NCBI GenBank assembly: GCA_025351345.1
Contig: JANXWB010000032.1
Coordinates: forward strand, 1 to 63,600
Direction: 5' to 3'
Source: Synechococcales cyanobacterium GL140_1_metabat_312
GTDB lineage: Bacteria > Cyanobacteriota > Cyanobacteriia > Leptolyngbyales > Leptolyngbyaceae
DNA: 63,600 nt
The notes under the pieces are model-generated. The model searched no databases. It was not told the origin of the DNA and saw only the letters and a program-made list of their open reading frames with translations. Shown here piece by piece: positions 1,816 through 43,768 of the stretch. Numbering within the stretch: position 1 is the first letter of the stretch; each line of letters begins with the position of its first letter. A program made the position numbers and the translations under genes.

Positions 1816-4368
1816 ATGAACTTTATTCGGGAAATGTTAGCGGGTAGCGTCTTGTTGGGAGTTGCGATCGCAATTCCCGTAGGGGCTGAGGGGCTTGAAC
1901 TTGGGGCTACGAGTGTGATGGGATCGCATCAAATTAAGCGTGCGATCGCCCAGATTGAAGCTAGGGAAACCGAAAATCTGATCGAGATTCGCAACGTACA
2001 GGTTGAAAAAACCGCAGACGGAGTAACGATCGCACTTGACACCAATGGTGAGGCCATTGCGCTGGCGGCTAAGACCGAAGGTGAGACCACTGTCCTAGAG
2101 ATTCCTAATGCTTTTCTCAGCCTAACAAATGGCAGTTTTATCTTAGATAATCCTGCCACCGGAATTGCACGAATCGAAGTATTGAACTTGTCCAGTAATC
2201 GTGTCCGTGTGACTATGACTGGTGTTAAAGCACCTCCCGTAACCAATGTCAGCACGACTCAATCAGCAGTAACGATCGGCGTAACGATCGCTACTATGGC
2301 GGATGTTCCCGATAATAACGATGAGGAGATCGTCGTGACGGGAAAGCGTAGCAACAACAAAGAACCATACTTTGTGCCCAGTGGTAGCACAGCAACCGGA
2401 ATCGACACCCCCATTCTCGAAACTCCAGCCTCGCTCCAGGTTATCCCCCGAACCATCCTTAACGACCAGCAGGCGATCAATCTCGGCGATGCTTTGCGTA
2501 ATACCAGCGGTGCATCTGTTAGTTCTACCGAGGGGCGAGGGTTCCAAATTAATTTGCGAGGATTCGACGGTGCTCCTGTATTTCGCGATGGTTTTCGTTT
2601 TTATAGTCCCAATGGTAATGGCGATGGGGCGGCTCAGGGATTTCCTGAAATTGCCAACATCGAAAAGATTGAAATCCTGCGTGGTCCAACGTCGATTTTG
2701 TTCGGGCAAATTCAACCCGGTGGTGCAGTTAATATCATTTCCAAACAACCCCTAGCGAAACCATTTTATTCTGTAGCGCTACAGGCCGGAAGTGATGGAT
2801 TAATCCGTCCTCAAGTGGATTTGAGTGGTCCGCTGTCGAGTAAGGGGAATGTGCTTTATCGTCTGAATGCGGTATATCAACATAAAGACGATTTCCGTAA
2901 TTATAATCAAGCCTCAGAGAGCTTTTTTATCGCACCAACAATCGCGTGGCAAATTAATGATCGGACCGACCTCGTTCTACGTGCTGAATACCTTAAAGGC
3001 AAACGCGCCCTAGATCCAGGACTCGTTGCGTTTGGAAAGGGTATTGCAGCTATTCCTCGCGATCGTATTTTGGGTGAACCAGACGATCGGGTCGAAAGTG
3101 ATTTTCTTAGTTTAGGTTATGATCTTAAGCACAAATTTAACGATCGTTGGTCAATCCGCAATTCCTTTCGATATCTACAAAGTAAAGATGATATTAGTGC
3201 AACTTTAAGCTTTCCATTTATTGGCGGACTGAACGAAAGAACGGGCATACTCAATCGTGTTTTTGCTGAGCAAACTATCAGTAATAAAACATTAGCGATG
3301 CAGACCAATGTTACGGGTAAATTTAGCACTGGTTCGATCGAGCATACTCTGCTCACCGGGGTTGATCTTGCCTCATACAATCTTGCATCTGATTCATTTA
3401 CTAGCTTTGCGTTACGTACTCCGATCAATATTTTTAACCCGAAGTATAACCTCATTGCTCGTCCAGCTCGCCTTAGTAATCCCACCAGTGCCCAACGCAT
3501 TCAAACGGATACTGTCACACTTTATTTACAAGATCGCATTAAATTGCTAGAGAGCCTAACTCTTCTAGCCGGACTGAATTACGAAGCTGTCAACCAAACG
3601 ACTAAAGCGACTCAGAACGGAACAACGACAGAAAGAACACTTAATAACAATGCTGTCACTCCACGTATTGGTTTGGTGTATCAGCCCGTCAAAAATCTGG
3701 CATTTTACGCAAACTATTCACGATCGTTTTATCCCAGTGCTGCAATTACGATTGGCGGTAATCCACTAAAGCCAGAAGAGGGCGAAGGCTTTGAAGTTGG
3801 TGTAAAATCTGAACTCTTTAATCGTCGTTTGCTGACAACATTGTCTTACTTCAACTTGACTAAAGCAAATGTTGCCACGGCTGACTTAAATGATCCACGT
3901 TTTTCAGTTGCAACTGGTAAACAAAACAGTCAAGGAATTGAATTAAATGCTATTGGGGAGATAACACCTGACTGGAATATCACCCTTTCCTATGCCTACA
4001 TTGATGCGAAAGTTACAGAAGACAATCTGATTAAAGTCGGTAATCTTCTCGCAGGTGTTCCTAAACACAGTGCTAGCCTCTGGAGTACCTACAAAATTCA
4101 ATCTGGCAATCTTAATGGTTTAGGTCTAGGGGTCGGATTGAATTGGTTTGGTCAACGTCAAGGTGACTTGCAGAATAGCTTTCAATTAGATAGTTACTTA
4201 TTGACTAATGCGGCAATTTTTTATGAACGTAATAATTGGGAATATCGTCTGAATTTCAACAATATCTTTAATGTGGATTACATCCAAGGTACGCCGCGTA
4301 CTCGTACCCGAGGGATTGAACCAGGGAAGCCTTTTTCTGTTACTGGCCTAATTCTCTACAAATTTTGA
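1816..4368 (+). CDS. TonB-dependent siderophore receptor with N-terminal AMIN domain
   Basis: Outer-membrane channel that would import a ferric siderophore using TonB energy. I chose ATG 1816 over an upstream in-frame TTG (1777) because a GGAAG site precedes it and the product then begins with a signal peptide (MNFIREMLAGSVLLGVAIAI, Ala-rich cleavage region near residue 24). AMIN domain at about 55-145, TonB-box-like EEIVVTG at about 170-176, plug at about 200-310 (PASLQVIPRTILNDQQ; ILRGPTSILFGQIQPGGAVN), then a 22-strand-type barrel ending in phenylalanine (LILYKF). The 850-residue length and AMIN-plug-barrel order are usual for cyanobacterial receptors. It opens the catechol siderophore cluster, so the ligand is probably the cluster's own product. 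Specificity cannot be read from sequence. Confidence 0.93.
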   Translation: MNFIREMLAGSVLLGVAIAIPVGAEGLELGATSVMGSHQIKRAIAQIEARETENLIEIRNVQVEKTADGVTIALDTNGEAIALAAKTEGETTVLEIPNAFLSLTNGSFILDNPATGIARIEVLNLSSNRVRVTMTGVKAPPVTNVSTTQSAVTIGVTIATMADVPDNNDEEIVVTGKRSNNKEPYFVPSGSTATGIDTPILETPASLQVIPRTILNDQQAINLGDALRNTSGASVSSTEGRGFQINLRGFDGAPVFRDGFRFYSPNGNGDGAAQGFPEIANIEKIEILRGPTSILFGQIQPGGAVNIISKQPLAKPFYSVALQAGSDGLIRPQVDLSGPLSSKGNVLYRLNAVYQHKDDFRNYNQASESFFIAPTIAWQINDRTDLVLRAEYLKGKRALDPGLVAFGKGIAAIPRDRILGEPDDRVESDFLSLGYDLKHKFNDRWSIRNSFRYLQSKDDISATLSFPFIGGLNERTGILNRVFAEQTISNKTLAMQTNVTGKFSTGSIEHTLLTGVDLASYNLASDSFTSFALRTPINIFNPKYNLIARPARLSNPTSAQRIQTDTVTLYLQDRIKLLESLTLLAGLNYEAVNQTTKATQNGTTTERTLNNNAVTPRIGLVYQPVKNLAFYANYSRSFYPSAAITIGGNPLKPEEGEGFEVGVKSELFNRRLLTTLSYFNLTKANVATADLNDPRFSVATGKQNSQGIELNAIGEITPDWNITLSYAYIDAKVTEDNLIKVGNLLAGVPKHSASLWSTYKIQSGNLNGLGLGVGLNWFGQRQGDLQNSFQLDSYLLTNAAIFYERNNWEYRLNFNNIFNVDYIQGTPRTRTRGIEPGKPFSVTGLILYKF

Positions 4369-6330: not shown

Positions 6331-7119
6331 ATGAAACCTATTGACTTCGCCAGTAAGCTCTTTGCTGTGACGGGAGCCGCTCAAGGCATTGGTGCTGCAA
6401 TCACCCAAGCACTACTTGATCGGGATGCGATCGTTGCTGCACTCGACATTTGCGCTGATACATTGCAGGCATTCCGCGATCGTATTGCCTCACCCCGGCT
6501 CCATACCTATTGCCTTGATATTGCTAACTATTCTCAAGTTGAATCGACGATTGGACGTATTGAAAGCAGCCTCGGTCCGATCGTCGGTTGGATCAATGTC
6601 GCAGGCATTCTGACCCCGAAATCCATCCTAGAGACAACGCCCGATGACTGGGAACGCACCTTTGCTGTGAATACCACGGGTGTATTTAATGCTTGTCAGT
6701 GTGTAGCTCGAGTGATGGTTCCCCGATGCAGTGGGGCGATCGTAACTGTCAGCTCAAATGCCGCTAGTGTTCCCCGACAAAATATGGCAGCCTACGCAGC
6801 CTCAAAAGCAGCAGCCACTCAATTCACTCGCTGCCTGGGTCTCGAACTTGCAGAGTTTGGCATTCGTTGCAATATTGTCTCGCCCGGTTCGACTGATACG
6901 CCGATGCAGCGATCGCTTTGGTCAGATGCCACCGCCACCGACGTTCCTGATGCTGTCCTACAAGGTTCATTGTCACATTTTCGGATCGGAATTCCCCTTC
7001 GTAGGATCGCTTCTCCTGAAGATGTGGCAGACGCGGTGCTGTTTTTGTTGAGTGATCGTGCCCGTCATATTACCCTGCACGATTTGCGTATTGATGGAGG
7101 TGCGACATTGGGGGCGTAA
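6331..7119 (+). CDS. entA: 2,3-dihydro-2,3-dihydroxybenzoate dehydrogenase (EntA/DhbA-like SDR)
   Basis: Oxidises 2,3-dihydro-2,3-dihydroxybenzoate to 2,3-dihydroxybenzoate with NAD+, the last step of catechol formation. A 262-residue short-chain dehydrogenase: N-terminal cofactor motif TGAAQGIGAAI (about residues 14-24), NVAGI near 90, catalytic Ser in VTVSSNAAS and YAASKAA (Tyr-x-x-x-Lys) near 155-160, and the C-terminus HDLRIDGGATLGA. That ending is almost the same as in EntA and DhbA, which sets this protein apart from general SDRs. First of four genes in the order A-C-E-B on the plus strand. Start ATG 6331. Confidence 0.88.
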   Translation: MKPIDFASKLFAVTGAAQGIGAAITQALLDRDAIVAALDICADTLQAFRDRIASPRLHTYCLDIANYSQVESTIGRIESSLGPIVGWINVAGILTPKSILETTPDDWERTFAVNTTGVFNACQCVARVMVPRCSGAIVTVSSNAASVPRQNMAAYAASKAAATQFTRCLGLELAEFGIRCNIVSPGSTDTPMQRSLWSDATATDVPDAVLQGSLSHFRIGIPLRRIASPEDVADAVLFLLSDRARHITLHDLRIDGGATLGA

Positions 7120-7292
7120 AACAACGCTGGAAGGCGATAACGACGATTTCATACTCAAAGTGCAGTCAGATGTTAGGCGAGTTGTTACAGCAACAGCTTG
7201 GTCCAGATTTGACCTTGGCAGGCATTTGAGTATTTCGTTCCAATCACGTATCTATTTTACATTTCTACCGTTTTTATTGAGAGGCATTTTGT

Positions 7293-8549
7293 ATGAAAAC
7301 TCAGCTTCCCCCGATGTATTCCGAGCGCTGGACGAGTGCTAGTGAACTCGCGATCGCCTGTAACAATAATACATCCTTTTTCTTTGCGACCCCGACTCAG
7401 ACGATGTTTGCGGAAGGAGTGCGATCGCGCCTGCCCCAATCTTCTAGGATGACTAATACCAGCAATCTGCCCCAACAAGCACGGGAGTTTTTGCAACAGC
7501 AGATGCAAAACTATTGGTGTCCAACGCTATTAGTCGGGGCGATTCCCTTTGACGATAGTGCAGCAGTTAATTTATTTGTCCCCGATCGTTTGCATCGCGC
7601 CCAACCCCTCACCAATCCGGCAGCAGTCAGTGGTCTTGGAGTCGCTCGCCCTTCCCAATCGATCGCGATTCCCGATCCGACTACGTATCAAGAGAATGTC
7701 GCCCAAGGCTTAGCACTGATTGATCAATCCGAGTTGCTCAAAGTGGTGCTATCGCGATCGTTAGAGCTTTCCTTTTCTGACGATATTGATTTCGGCCAGC
7801 TTATTGGCAACCTCGCTAACAGCAACCGTCACGGCTACACGTATCTAATCGATTTAGTAGATGCGATCGATTCACCCCCATCGCAGCTTTCCCAAGCCTC
7901 ATCGGTTCCCCCCCACAAACTGATCGGCGCAAGTCCTGAACTGCTTGTCCGACGGCGAGGACTCAAGGTCGAAGCGAATCCCTTGGCTGGTTCGGTGGCG
8001 TTGAGTGGCGATCCGGATCGTGATTCTCAGCAAGCCTACGCCCTGTTGAATTCTAAGAAAGATCGGTATGAACATGCAGTCGTCGTCGAAGCGGTGGCCA
8101 ATGCTCTACGTCCGTTTTGTGACTACCTCAATGTGCCGTCGATTCCATCGATCATCGAAACCGATACGATGATGCACCTTTCGACCCAGATCAAGGGAAA
8201 TCTACACGATCCTGAAATCTGTGCTCTATCAGTAGCGCTAGCCTTACACCCAACCCCGGCGGTCTGTGGTGCACCACCCGAGCAAGCCTATGATGCGATT
8301 AAAACCATTGAGTCGTTTTCCCGCCGCTACTTTACTGGCATGGTGGGCTGGATGGATGATCATGGAGATGGCGAGTGGGCGGTGACGATCCGGTGTGGTG
8401 AGGCGCGGGGACGTTGTTTGCGTCTGTATGCTGGAGCTGGAGTCGTGGCTGGGTCAAGTCCTGCCAAGGAACTCGCCGAAACCTCTGCTAAGTTGCGCAC
8501 GATGTTAAAAGCGTTAGGGTTAAACGATCTGCTGGAGGTCTCTATATGA
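7293..8549 (+). CDS. entC: Isochorismate synthase of siderophore pathway (EntC/DhbC-like)
   Basis: Converts chorismate to isochorismate, the entry to dihydroxybenzoate. The 418-residue product has the C-terminal chorismate-binding fold: [46 protein letters not shown], then the [18 protein letters not shown] and [17 protein letters not shown] blocks with Mg-binding glutamates. The short N-terminal region and position between entA and entE separate it from the menaquinone/phylloquinone-type enzyme at 45817. Start ATG 7293 follows a GAGAGG ribosome site. Its last four bases (ATGA) overlap the start of entE, indicating translational coupling. Confidence 0.9.
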
Positions 8550-10240
8550 TTCGTGCTGATCTCTCCTCTAACTTGCCGCGATCGCCAGAATTACAGGCAA
8601 TTTTACCTTCCCCTGATCTCCGAGGGGATTGTCCGAGCTGGCCGCCTGATGTGGCGGAGGACTATCGTCAACGGGGGTATTGGCAGCGCCAAACTTTGGG
8701 TGAGTGGCTCGCTCATCAATCGCAATGCTTCGGCACAAGCACGGCACTGGTCGATCGTGATCGACGCTGGAGTTATGCTGACCTCGATCGCCGTGTGGAT
8801 CGGCTTGCCACGGGCTTTCAATCCTTGGGCTTAATGGCGGGCGATCGTGTAGTAGTGCAACTGCCTAATAGCCTAGAATTTTTCGCTGTCTTTTTTGCTC
8901 TGACGCGGTTGGGTGCGTTGCCCATACTGGCTCTACCTGCCCATCGTCAAATCGAAATTCAAAGCTTTATTGAACACGCCGAAGCGATCGCCTATGTTCT
9001 GCCCGATCGCACTTGGAATTTCGACTATCGCCAACTCGCCCGCACCATCCAGACACAATGCCCCAGCCTCCAGCACGTAATTGTCGTTGGCGAAGCGCAG
9101 GAATTTTGTCCTCTTGATCGGCTTGATGGCGACCCGAAGCCTTTCCCCGACCTCGACCCTGAAGCTGTCGCCTTCTTCCAACTATCTGGCGGTAGTACAG
9201 GTGTCCCAAAACTCATCCCTCGCACTCATGCTGACTACCTCTATAGTGTGCGGGTAAGTGCCGAAATCTGTCGCCTTACTCCCGATAGTACCTACCTTGT
9301 CGCCCTACCCGCGTCCCATAACTTTCCCCTGAGTTCCCCCGGCAGTCTTGGTACACTCGCAGTCGGTGGCAAAGTTGTTCTAGCTCGCCATCCTAACCCA
9401 GATGAAGCCTTCGCCCTAATCGAACAGGAGCGCGTCACCATTACGGCTCTCGTGCCACCCCTCGTACTAGCGTGGCTTGAGGCGGTTGAGACCCGCGATC
9501 GAGATCTGTCGAGCCTACAAGTATTGCAGGTGGGCGGCGCGAAACTTACCCCAGAAGTGGCAGGCCGCATTACCCCGACTCTAGGCTGTCAGCTCCAGCA
9601 GGTCTTCGGTATGGGGGAGGGTCTAGTGTGCTACACGCGCCTTGACGATGACGAGGAAACCATCCACACGACCCAAGGTCGCCCTCTATCATCCGCTGAT
9701 GAAATTCGAGTGGTGGACGATGACGATCGCCCAGTAGCATCTGGCGAGGTGGGGCATCTGCTGACCCGTGGTCCTTATACGATCCGGGGCTATTATCGCG
9801 CTCCAGAACAAAACCGCCGTGACTTTACGATCGATGGATTTTACCGCACGGGAGATCGTGTATGCCTAACGCCATCGGGCAATCTGATCGTTGAAGGACG
9901 AGCTAAGGAATTAATCAATCGGGCGGGCGAAAAGGTGAGCGCTGAGGAAGTGGAAAGCCATTTGCTGGCATATCCCGATATTTACAATGTGGCGGTGGTG
10001 GCTATGCCCGATCGTTTTTTAGGGGAAGGTATCTGTGCCTTTTTAGTCAGAAACTCTCTGCCCGATCGAGATATTCAAACCTTTGACCCCGTTGAAATTC
10101 AGGCTCTTAAGCAGTTCTTACGCGATCGAGGTTTAGCGGACTATAAAATTCCTGATCGATTCGAGGGGTTGATTGCATTACCCCATACCGGAGCCGGGAA
10201 GGTGGATAAAAAATTCTTGCGGCAACAGTTATTGAGTTGA
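8546..10240 (+). CDS. entE: 2,3-dihydroxybenzoate-AMP ligase (EntE/DhbE-like)
   Basis: Stand-alone adenylation enzyme that activates 2,3-dihydroxybenzoate and loads it onto the EntB aryl carrier domain. 564 residues with AMP-binding signatures: [20 protein letters not shown] (P-loop), [32 protein letters not shown] and [20 protein letters not shown], ending with [16 protein letters not shown] (C-terminal Lys). The aryl-acid pocket segment reads [10 protein letters not shown], where enterobactin-type enzymes usually have HNY; salicylate enzymes, as I recall, have Phe here, so salicylate is a minor alternative. The neighbouring entA gene favours dihydroxybenzoate. ATGA overlap with entC; 77-base gap to entB. 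Confidence 0.9.
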
Positions 10241-41212: not shown

Positions 41213-41815
41213 CTAAGCCTTTATTTGTTCTGGAAAGACGATCGCTGCATCAGCATTCACCAAATTCTTCTTCTCAGCATCCAACCGTCGCTTACGGGCA
41301 TAAAGTTGAATACTCGCCGCAAATGCGATCGCCATTCCAAAGACAACATAACTTGTCGCATTGGTTGGAATATCATTTTTAAAAATAGCCAACATCACAA
41401 TCACCACCAAAAAGAACGTTGGAAATTCATTCATCCAACGAAACTGCTTAGATGTGAGCGGCATCTCTCCCGCCTCCATTTGGCGAATAATTTTACGGCA
41501 ATAATGATGGAAACCCACCAACACCAACACCAAACCAATTTTCACCTGCAACCAAGTCTGATGTAACAAATCAGGTGCGATCGTCAACATAGCGATCGCC
41601 ATCACAATTGTCACTACCATGGCAGGGGTCATAATGATGCCATAGAGCCGCTTTTCCATCAAAGTAAACTGCGTCTTCAAAATGCTGCGAGCGGGTTCTA
41701 CTTGCTGCTCGTGGGCCTCTGCATGATAAACAAACAACCGTGGCAGATAAAAAAGCCCAGCAAACCACGAGACAAATCCCACAATATGAAACGCTTTAAA
41801 CCAAAAGTACGGCAT
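41213..41815 (-). CDS. hemJ: HemJ-type protoporphyrinogen IX oxidase
   Basis: Membrane enzyme converting protoporphyrinogen IX to protoporphyrin IX in the haem/chlorophyll pathway; HemJ is the usual form in cyanobacteria. 200 residues with about four membrane segments. N-terminus MPYFWFKAFHIVGFVSWFAG with LFYLPRLFVYHAEA carries the conserved His (residue 10) and Arg; EKRLYGIIMTPAMVVTIVMA and WLQVKIGLVLVLVGFHHYCR follow, and the helix with K-I-G-L is conserved in the family. The charged C-terminal tail (ARKRRLDAEKKN) is slightly longer than in some homologues. Start ATG 41815. Confidence 0.9.
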   Translation of the reverse strand: MPYFWFKAFHIVGFVSWFAGLFYLPRLFVYHAEAHEQQVEPARSILKTQFTLMEKRLYGIIMTPAMVVTIVMAIAMLTIAPDLLHQTWLQVKIGLVLVLVGFHHYCRKIIRQMEAGEMPLTSKQFRWMNEFPTFFLVVIVMLAIFKNDIPTNATSYVVFGMAIAFAASIQLYARKRRLDAEKKNLVNADAAIVFPEQIKA

Positions 41816-41936: not shown

Positions 41937-42128
41937 TTACACGAGATAAGTTTCTAGGACCACTGGAGTCATAAGTTCTTCTGACGGACCTTGATGTAAA
42001 AAGAGCGAAATCGCTACAGAAATTGCACGATCTTGGTCCCAATCTGGGTTCTTCTCAATATACTGAGCCAATTCACTGTGAAGAGTTTCGGGAAGTTCGG
42101 TAAGCAGGGAAATCGTGGGAGACATCAT
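41937..42128 (-). CDS. DUF2811 small protein
   Basis: 63-residue protein with the pattern ISLLTELPETLHSELAQYIE, then NPDWDQDRAISVAISLFLHQ. The P-D-W-D-Q-D-R motif followed by a hydrophobic helix is characteristic of cyanobacterial DUF2811 proteins, which have no known function; the fold looks like a short helical or ribbon-helix type. Two adjacent ATGs (42128, 42125) could start it. It has its own terminator at 41850-41877 and lies beside the large DnaA-box-containing spacer. Confidence 0.8.
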   Translation of the reverse strand: MMSPTISLLTELPETLHSELAQYIEKNPDWDQDRAISVAISLFLHQGPSEELMTPVVLETYLV

Positions 42129-42393
42129 AAAATAAAACCTTTACTCAAGCCCTAGGTGTGACGAATTTAAAACAGGAATCAACAGCCACTGAGATCATCA
42201 ACACCAAATGCTATAAATAACGGCTTCGCTTCACTTTTCTCGCAAGTTTACGCGCAAGTCACATCAGTTGGTGCTGAACTAGTGAATCGAATTCTCGCAC
42301 TGCGCTGAGTGTTTGTAGAGCGTATATTTACTTGTGCCATTTAATACATCACGTCTCTACGAATACACTCATGATTACTTCGTGCCTGCGTAC

Positions 42394-42647
42394 TGTGGAA
42401 AACGTCTTAAATATATTTTAGAGGAGTGTTATCGAGTGAAAATTTGAGTAATTCAAATGTATTAAAATCGCTGAGAGCTTTGTGTGGCAAGCAATTCAGG
42501 TTTTTTAATCAGAAACAGATAACCAGAATAACGAAGCTCTATGTTGGGGGAAGCGATCGATTCGCATCACAGAACACAATCGAAGTCAGCGCTGCCCTGT
42601 GGAAAACCATTCATAATCTGTGGAAAAGAGAGAATGGATGTGGAAAG
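42394..42647. promoter_or_regulatory. Cluster of DnaA-box-like words (candidate origin region)
   Basis: TGTGGAAAA, the complement of TTTTCCACA (the cyanobacterial DnaA box as I recall it), occurs at 42394-42402, 42598-42606 and 42619-42627. A one-mismatch copy (TGTGGAAAG) is at 42639-42647. All have the same orientation, and three lie within 50 bases at about 20-bp spacing. They are in the 746-base gene-free spacer 42129-42874, flanked by A/T-rich runs (ATATATTTTA near 42411; TATTAACTAAATATTTCTTG near 42731). No dnaA or dnaN is next to it, so an origin is only a candidate; transcriptional control by DnaA is another option. Confidence 0.5.
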
Positions 42648-42874
42648 ATTTAAAAAATGTGGGGGAAGTCTCTATCTAAAAGAAGAAATATAAAGATGTC
42701 GATCGTTATTTTTGGAGTGATTTTCTGGAGTATTAACTAAATATTTCTTGCTTTTTACTTAAACAAACGTAACAGCACAAATGCAATAGCACAAAAAATC
42801 CTGGATACGAAATATCGCGCCAGGAGGTTGATTGAATCCCTAAGTCAGTGGTGAGGGACTATACGTTAATCCAG

Positions 42875-43768
42875 CTAGTTAATCCGGCGGATATTCAAAC
42901 AACACCAGTCACCGCGTTTCCAGAGTGCTGACACAAACCAGCCATTCTCTTCAAGAACATCCGTCACGGCTTTGGCCTGGTCTAGCAGAACACCGCTGAG
43001 GATGCCCCAGGTGTCGGGTTTGGTGAATGGCTCCCACTCAGGAATCAGCTCCACAATTACATGGGCCAAGATATTGCAAACAATGCCCTCGACGGGTTCA
43101 GGAATCATATCCACAATGACTTCCACACTGCCTTCAGCTACCTCAAGCCGCGATGGATCGATATTGTTAAGTGTCACGTTTTCCTGAGTTGCTTTTACGG
43201 CCAATGGATCTGTATCAACGGCATAAGCTTTTTTTGCGCCCAACAGCAATGCGCCCACAGACAAAATTCCTGAACCACAGCCAATATCTGCGATCGTAAT
43301 CAATTCTGGATGATCGCCCAATCGCATCTCTAGTGCTTCGAGACAAAGTTGCGTGGTGGCATGGTCTCCCGTACCAAAAGCGACTCCAGGTTCCAGCTTA
43401 AGAATGGTCCGATCGGTATGCTCTGGCAATGGCAACCAAGCGGGATGAATGAGGAGACGATCGCCAACATTTTGCGGTTTCCAATAGGCTTTCCAGCCGC
43501 TGGCCCAGTCTTCCTCATCGATCAATCGCCACTGAATCGACGGTTCCCCCACTTCAAAACACAATGCATCTTGTTTAACTTGCAGTGCCAAGGCCGACAA
43601 GTCCAAAACATGAGATGACACCTTCGGAACATAAGCCGCAATAACGGACGAATTGCCTTCTCGCTGACTAGACATTCCCTTACAGCCAAACATTTCCAGT
43701 CGCCAAAACATGGATTCTTCCAGTACTGCGTCACATAAAATCTGGATTTCCCACCAACTGTTTGTCAT
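42875..43768 (-). CDS. prmA: Ribosomal protein L11 methyltransferase
   Basis: 297-residue SAM-dependent enzyme trimethylating ribosomal protein L11. The N-terminal substrate domain ([39 protein letters not shown]) is followed by the catalytic fold: [60 protein letters not shown] and [18 protein letters not shown] (N-I-L-A catalytic motif). Motifs and length are standard. Start ATG 43768, downstream of serA on the same strand after a 279-base gap containing a repeat. Confidence 0.94.

Follow-up and report, generated by a model that had tools for sequence, protein, structure and literature searches.

Sda of Bacillus subtilis is a small protein, and its gene has DnaA boxes upstream. Transcription of sda needs active DnaA, which couples an output to replication (PMC5295017). 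In the same organism, DnaA boxes also occur in clusters outside oriC, and removal of six of these clusters is reported to advance initiation (PMC5295017, PMC13220808). Escherichia coli has non-origin DnaA-box loci as well, and these (datA, DARS1 and DARS2) are described as acting on DnaA (PMC5295017). In cyanobacteria, oriC is marked by TTTTCCACA boxes clustered in an intergenic region with dnaN as a neighbour; dnaN flanks oriC in 55 of the 68 species reported (PMC4674748). These oriC boxes are bound in vitro by domain IV of DnaA, and two of them lie 2 nt apart, giving an 11-bp step (PMC4674748). For Synechococcus elongatus, binding of DnaA to oriC has been reported by ChIP-qPCR (PMC6478999).

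A box cluster away from dnaA and dnaN

The window analysed here is a stretch of 63,600 nucleotides from a Synechococcales cyanobacterium. Its 746-base gap at 42129–42874 carries, on the minus strand, three exact copies of TTTTCCACA and one near match, CTTTCCACA, all in a single shared orientation (Table 1). The distal three of these four boxes span 50 bp (42598–42647). An earlier note on this DNA had described the same sites, at the correct coordinates, with A/T-rich stretches beside them; the gap is richer in A/T than the window (38% GC, versus 46%). The note's 'gene desert' needs one correction: at its left edge lies the start codon of a DUF2811 gene, missed at the time, whose 63-aa reading frame occupies 41940–42128 on the minus strand. 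As the note also stated, neither dnaA nor dnaN is adjacent: the neighbours are prmA, with serA as the next gene beyond it, and DUF2811/hemJ.

Table 1. Positions of the boxes, conserved blocks and genes at the locus (window coordinates)
Feature	Position	Strand	Details
hemJ (protoporphyrinogen oxidase HemJ), frequent downstream neighbour of DUF2811	41213–41815	−	TIGR00701
DUF2811 (PF10929) gene, 63 aa, linked to the array	41937–42128	−	Pfam match E 1.3e-16, 61.1 bits versus cut-off 26.6
Conserved block between boxes and DUF2811	42290–42331	−	Genus alignment
Lone exact DnaA-type box TTTTCCACA, gene-proximal	42394–42402	−	265 bp upstream of DUF2811; identical in 4/4 aligned genus sequences
A/T-rich conserved block ATTTTAATACATTTGAATTACTCAA	42444–42468	−	Genus alignment
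Head-to-tail array of DnaA-type boxes	42598–42647	−	TTTTCCACA 42598–42606, TTTTCCACA 42619–42627, CTTTCCACA 42639–42647; 20–21 bp steps
prmA, upstream neighbour	42875–43768	−	TIGR00406

Counted over the entire window, matches with no more than one mismatch are ordinary in number (25, versus 23.2 expected). It is their clustering, not the window-wide count, that is unusual. When the gap was simulated 20,000 times with a first-order Markov model, no simulated sequence had three or more exact same-strand sites. The whole genome (3.85 Mb in 100 contigs) contains 64 exact sites, and three of these fall within 300 bp in only two places, namely the 746-base gap and the gap between dnaA and dnaN. When 64 sites were placed at random, any such place arose in 17 of 20,000 trials. 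With several boxes outside oriC and above chance, the gap has the sequence layout of a non-origin DnaA-box cluster of the Bacillus type. An alignment of the gap from three sequences of the genus, with alignment gaps scored as differences, is 97% identical over the 36 box columns versus 36% over the other 710. The middle box of the triple array reads TTTTCCCCA in two of four genus sequences, and the array is otherwise conserved in the genus.

The earlier note had proposed the gap as a replication origin, and boxes in register with A/T-rich DNA nearby would fit such a role. In the same genome, however, dnaA (7021–8376) and dnaN (8775–9926) lie on another contig, C94, and flank four exact boxes; this is the usual cyanobacterial oriC neighbourhood, and the proposal is rejected on that ground. 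The gap resembles the published oriC at dnaN in having the same TTTTCCACA box, clustered and intergenic (PMC4674748), but prmA and DUF2811/hemJ take the place of a flanking dnaN, and the boxes of the genome's own dnaA–dnaN cluster run both ways round. Moreover, box clusters track DUF2811 across differing neighbourhoods, as described below. We consider it extremely unlikely that the gap is the chromosomal origin or a second, auxiliary one. GC skew was weak and irregular in 20 stretches of 20 kb from a single-contig relative (G036), which gave no clear minimum, and in short profiles of the window and C94; for the window genome it is uninformative, because the assembly is in 100 contigs. An array of this kind cautions against predicting cyanobacterial origins from DnaA-box clusters alone.

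The other neighbour of the gap is prmA, which the cluster adjoins in three of four genus genomes; in the fourth, G001, the prmA contig and the cluster contig both end there, so that adjacency is not visible. Outside the genus, the box cluster was absent from 26 prmA loci in 25 genomes (G020 contributed two pieces), with flanks of up to 1.5 kb on each side, some of them cut by contig ends, and these loci showed scattered single sites only. Hence, we reject the idea that the array is tied to prmA.

Association of the array with DUF2811

Pairs of exact boxes 8–30 bp apart were found in 49 of 58 relatives (at least one pair each), compared to none for the backward control. Forty places, among the tandem-pair places listed, were fetched and grouped by shared ORFs: 12 were with dnaN, 18 with DUF2811, 7 with guaA and 3 with others (L042, L061 and L070). 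Because these 40 places were picked for having a pair, counts that start from DUF2811 weigh more. Among the 18 DUF2811 places, 10 have hemJ, 6 lie beside a PD-(D/E)XK nuclease gene (one such nuclease assigned by Pfam, the others through homology to that one) and 2 have neither. A hemJ homologue is present in 13 of 44 compared loci.

A profile search of contigs gave 421 confirmed DUF2811 places, and the best 80 of these, mostly from Nostocales, make up the named set. In 79 of the 80, an exact box lies within 1 kb upstream of DUF2811; the sole exception (L131) is recorded as Alkalinema sp. RU_4_3. Upstream sites in this set number 93 in the orientation of the gene versus 1 in the opposite orientation, with no backward-motif sites, and the 1-kb stretches downstream hold 3 exact sites. 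A second set comprises 48 loci from the genome collection searched, picked by genome or by best DUF2811 score. Here, an exact upstream box is present in 43 loci, with 83 sites in the same orientation versus 0 in the opposite one, 2 sites downstream and 0 for the backward motif. The five loci without an exact box include two with near matches only, mainly TTTTCCCCA (L171 and L200), a diverged second DUF2811 copy (L178), a locus with 382 bp of upstream sequence only (L193) and that of the dnaA-less genome G158 (L172). These locus counts (79/80 and 43/48), like the counts from 127 upstream regions given below, are not independent trials, because the sets overlap in part (for instance, L077 is the locus of G001, the boxes of L078 sit at the positions seen in L009, and each of the pairs L069/L182 and L075/L166 represents one place) and contain many close kin.

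The boxes follow one another in steps of 11, 21 or 22 bp, roughly one or two turns of the helix, and lie mostly 210–630 bp upstream of DUF2811. In 127 upstream regions, sites with at most one mismatch number 445 on the same strand versus 47 on the other, and 281 of the 319 successive same-strand steps measure 10–12, 20–23, 31–34 or 42–45 bp. The backward motif has 18 and 11 sites in these regions, with none of 3 steps in register. Two DUF2811 paralogues have the array: in six loci, the copy beside a PD-(D/E)XK gene has it too. The window genome has a second DUF2811 gene too (G000:C77:2467-2649), with four degenerate boxes 21–22 bp apart and one inverted exact box; the ORF that follows it resembles, by eye, the PD-(D/E)XK ORF of other loci. 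As judged by these sequence comparisons, many families of cyanobacteria keep the arrangement of array and DUF2811, and it is kept at both paralogues. An sda-type DnaA-regulated promoter would have the same layout, with boxes constantly arranged upstream of a single gene.

We suggest that the array probably regulates the DUF2811 gene as a site at which DnaA oligomers bind. DnaA, probably as ATP-DnaA, would assemble head to tail on the boxes, and the assembled protein would switch DUF2811 transcription, either activating or repressing it. The small DUF2811 protein would then be made in step with DnaA activity and could be either an output of DnaA-dependent initiation or a factor that feeds back on it. 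Titration of DnaA at the array may also take place alongside regulation.

By function, the closest analogues of such an array would be the sda gene and the Bacillus DnaA-box clusters. The likeness to sda is that of a protein gene under DnaA control, which for DUF2811 we infer from sequence layout; the analogy is functional, and no sequence relation is claimed. The Bacillus clusters share the grouping of boxes away from oriC but, unlike them, the cyanobacterial array is tied to one gene family, in a fixed orientation and in many families, and is lost in a dnaA-less genome. The datA and DARS loci involve IHF/Fis dependence and nucleotide-state effects; what the DUF2811 array has in common with them is DnaA-type boxes away from the origin. 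The datA, DARS1 and DARS2 sites are not known to be tied to one gene family.

Box clusters also recur on the side of guaA (L039, L044, L049, L050, L053, L057 and L073, near position 4000). In L039 and L053, guaA and a DUF3318 gene converge, with the cluster between their 3' ends. This DUF3318 gene, which borders two guaA sites, also has a cluster at its 3' end in L061, where a nearby ORF looks recA-like by eye. Where the gene ends converge, promoter control is unlikely, and the guaA clusters seem to be DnaA sites rather than promoters. Another cluster (L042:4010-4060; G036:C1:2273909) consists of three exact boxes 21 bp apart, between ORFs that by eye are polyphosphate-kinase-like and sigma-factor-like.

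The guaA clusters, which in some genomes lie between convergent gene ends, count against DnaA regulation at DUF2811 and in favour of its main rival. In that alternative, the array would titrate or reactivate DnaA, acting on its free or nucleotide-bound form in the manner of the Bacillus clusters, datA and DARS, and DUF2811 is a mere neighbour; known systems do have this kind of sequence in clusters away from oriC, as far as those accounts describe them. Both explanations could hold. Yet the array stays with DUF2811, nearly always in the orientation of the gene, as hemJ, PD-(D/E)XK and other neighbours vary, and five of six dnaA-less genomes are without DUF2811 itself (see below). We regard a titration site with DUF2811 as a bystander as unlikely.

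Upstream elements and the DUF2811 protein

Perfect boxes tend to be gene-proximal, and degenerate ones (CTTTCCACA, GTTTCCACA, TTTTCCCCA and TTTTCCTCA) tend to lie farther off. In many lineages, a TTGACA-N19-CACAAT block with a conserved C-rich spacer lies between the array and the start codon and has the look of a promoter. Its first half, searched for as a pattern, is present in 86 of the 127 regions and not in the window. In the window, the conserved block nearest to DUF2811 (Table 1) is perhaps a promoter, given its partial likeness, by eye, to the Nostocales TTGACA-N19-CACAAT. This promoter-like block is 266 bp from the triple array and 62 bp from the single box. Known promoter-bound DnaA sites mostly lie nearer the promoter than the array of the window does. 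The position of the array, well upstream of the promoter-like block, counts against regulation of DUF2811 by DnaA and in favour of titration.

Two further elements were seen in the upstream regions. One is a highly conserved, promoter-like block type, CGCAGCATTGACAAACCCACCCCCTCTTGGCGCACAATGATGCG, with an inverted repeat at its ends, which lies about 140–380 bp upstream of DUF2811 in L079–L155. The other is rich in A/T, has the core G(C/T)AATTCTTAT and lies just past the distal boxes in L066, L069, L273, L274 and Nostocales loci; it is retained in G158 despite the loss of boxes there. At gathering scores Rfam matched nothing in the window, and a lax threshold brought up no credible match in eight loci. 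The conserved block that separates the array from the gene is therefore no catalogued RNA. A tRNA search of the window found none.

AlphaFold2 models of DUF2811 are of low confidence (mean pLDDT 57.8 and 64.2) and mostly helical. Foldseek found no match for these models at E ≤0.001 (best 1.4), comparison with PDB sequences gave nothing significant (best E 0.96), and no other Pfam family scored below E 0.02. A ribbon-helix-helix fold, guessed from the sequence pattern, received no support from the models, Foldseek, PDB or Pfam and was dropped. In the openly available literature, we found no paper naming DUF2811 or PF10929, nothing on a 'DnaA regulon' in cyanobacteria and none joining DnaA, cyanobacteria, ChIP-seq, Synechococcus and oriC; subscription literature lay mostly outside this search, and earlier reports are possible.

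Loss of dnaA, DUF2811 and the boxes

We surveyed 289 genomes of the class, sampled evenly out of a larger set and each with a completeness of 95% or more. With all candidates scored, dnaA was missing above the family cut-off from six (G152, G158, G164, G260, G273 and G291); weak partial matches occur in the first five of these (best E 1.6e-5), and G291 has none. DUF2811 is missing from seven genomes, namely five of the six dnaA-less ones plus G060 and G159, two dnaA-positive, fragmented drafts of about 380 and 460 contigs. In other words, DUF2811 is present in 281 of 283 dnaA-bearing genomes versus 1 of 6 dnaA-less genomes (Fisher P = 8e-9, with kinship ignored). A Synechococcus elongatus genome, among the controls of the search, matched DUF2811 as well. 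On a guaA tree of 29 genomes, on which several forks are weakly supported, dnaA changes three times and DUF2811 twice. A test of independent pairs over the supported branches had no power, with two pairs, one agreeing and one without difference (P = 1). The small number of independent dnaA/DUF2811 loss events on this tree counts against DnaA regulation, as do the two dnaA-positive genomes that lack DUF2811.

Absence of dnaA has been published for free-living Geminocystis and Cyanobacterium and for symbionts (PMC7198777). G152 was left off the guaA tree because it has no full guaA. This genome, a single contig of 3.8 Mb, has neither dnaA nor DUF2811, and its guaA matches are partial and weak; the eight other members of its family that were searched have guaA. 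Since guaA is lacking too, G152 may be a reduced genome, and it may be a symbiont.

G158 (without dnaA) and G276 (with dnaA) are two species of one genus. Upstream of DUF2811, three features are retained in both: an element, TTTGCAATTCTTAT, a word, ACTGAGTTT, and the promoter-like block. In G276, three exact boxes at 22-bp spacing lie between TTTGCAATTCTTAT and ACTGAGTTT. At that place G158 has two-mismatch sites only, and its upstream region has no site with at most one mismatch and five two-mismatch sites within 800 bp. For the view that the boxes act for DnaA, this contrast is the strongest single argument, although it is one case. Together with the published box (PMC4674748), the erosion of the array in this dnaA-less genome lends indirect support to the earlier note's view that the word is the cyanobacterial DnaA box. 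G158 keeps DUF2811 in the absence of dnaA, so any tie between the protein and DnaA is not a strict one; this and the two-mismatch sites left in G158 count against the regulatory reading. The two genomes are also a useful pair for asking how dnaA becomes dispensable.

Another regulator that uses the same word might bind the boxes instead. Consistent with this, specific deviations (TTTTCCCCA or TTTTCCTCA, and GTTTCCACA) are kept in distal boxes across many genomes, and in dnaA-less genomes, too, single TTTTCCACA words are more frequent than the backward control (27 genomes compared). Lone boxes are therefore a poor sign of DnaA use, and we rejected a genome-wide excess of single boxes as proof of it. 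On the other hand, the array is lost from G158 while adjoining elements are retained, and the word is that of the oriC boxes reported to be bound by DnaA domain IV in vitro, with the same 11-bp step (PMC4674748). We consider a different regulator very unlikely.

A regulatory role of the array opens a further possibility, which we advance only tentatively. DUF2811 would be a small protein that belongs to the DnaA-dependent initiation system of cyanobacteria, with its gene switched by the DnaA array and its product feeding back on DnaA or initiation. Membership of this system would account for the presence of DUF2811 in nearly all dnaA-bearing genomes and its rarity in those without dnaA. A widespread DnaA-type array at one uncharacterised gene, which most dnaA-less genomes lack, offers a single testable candidate for an initiation regulator or an output of DnaA, and bears on how initiation is controlled in cyanobacteria and why some lineages can drop dnaA.
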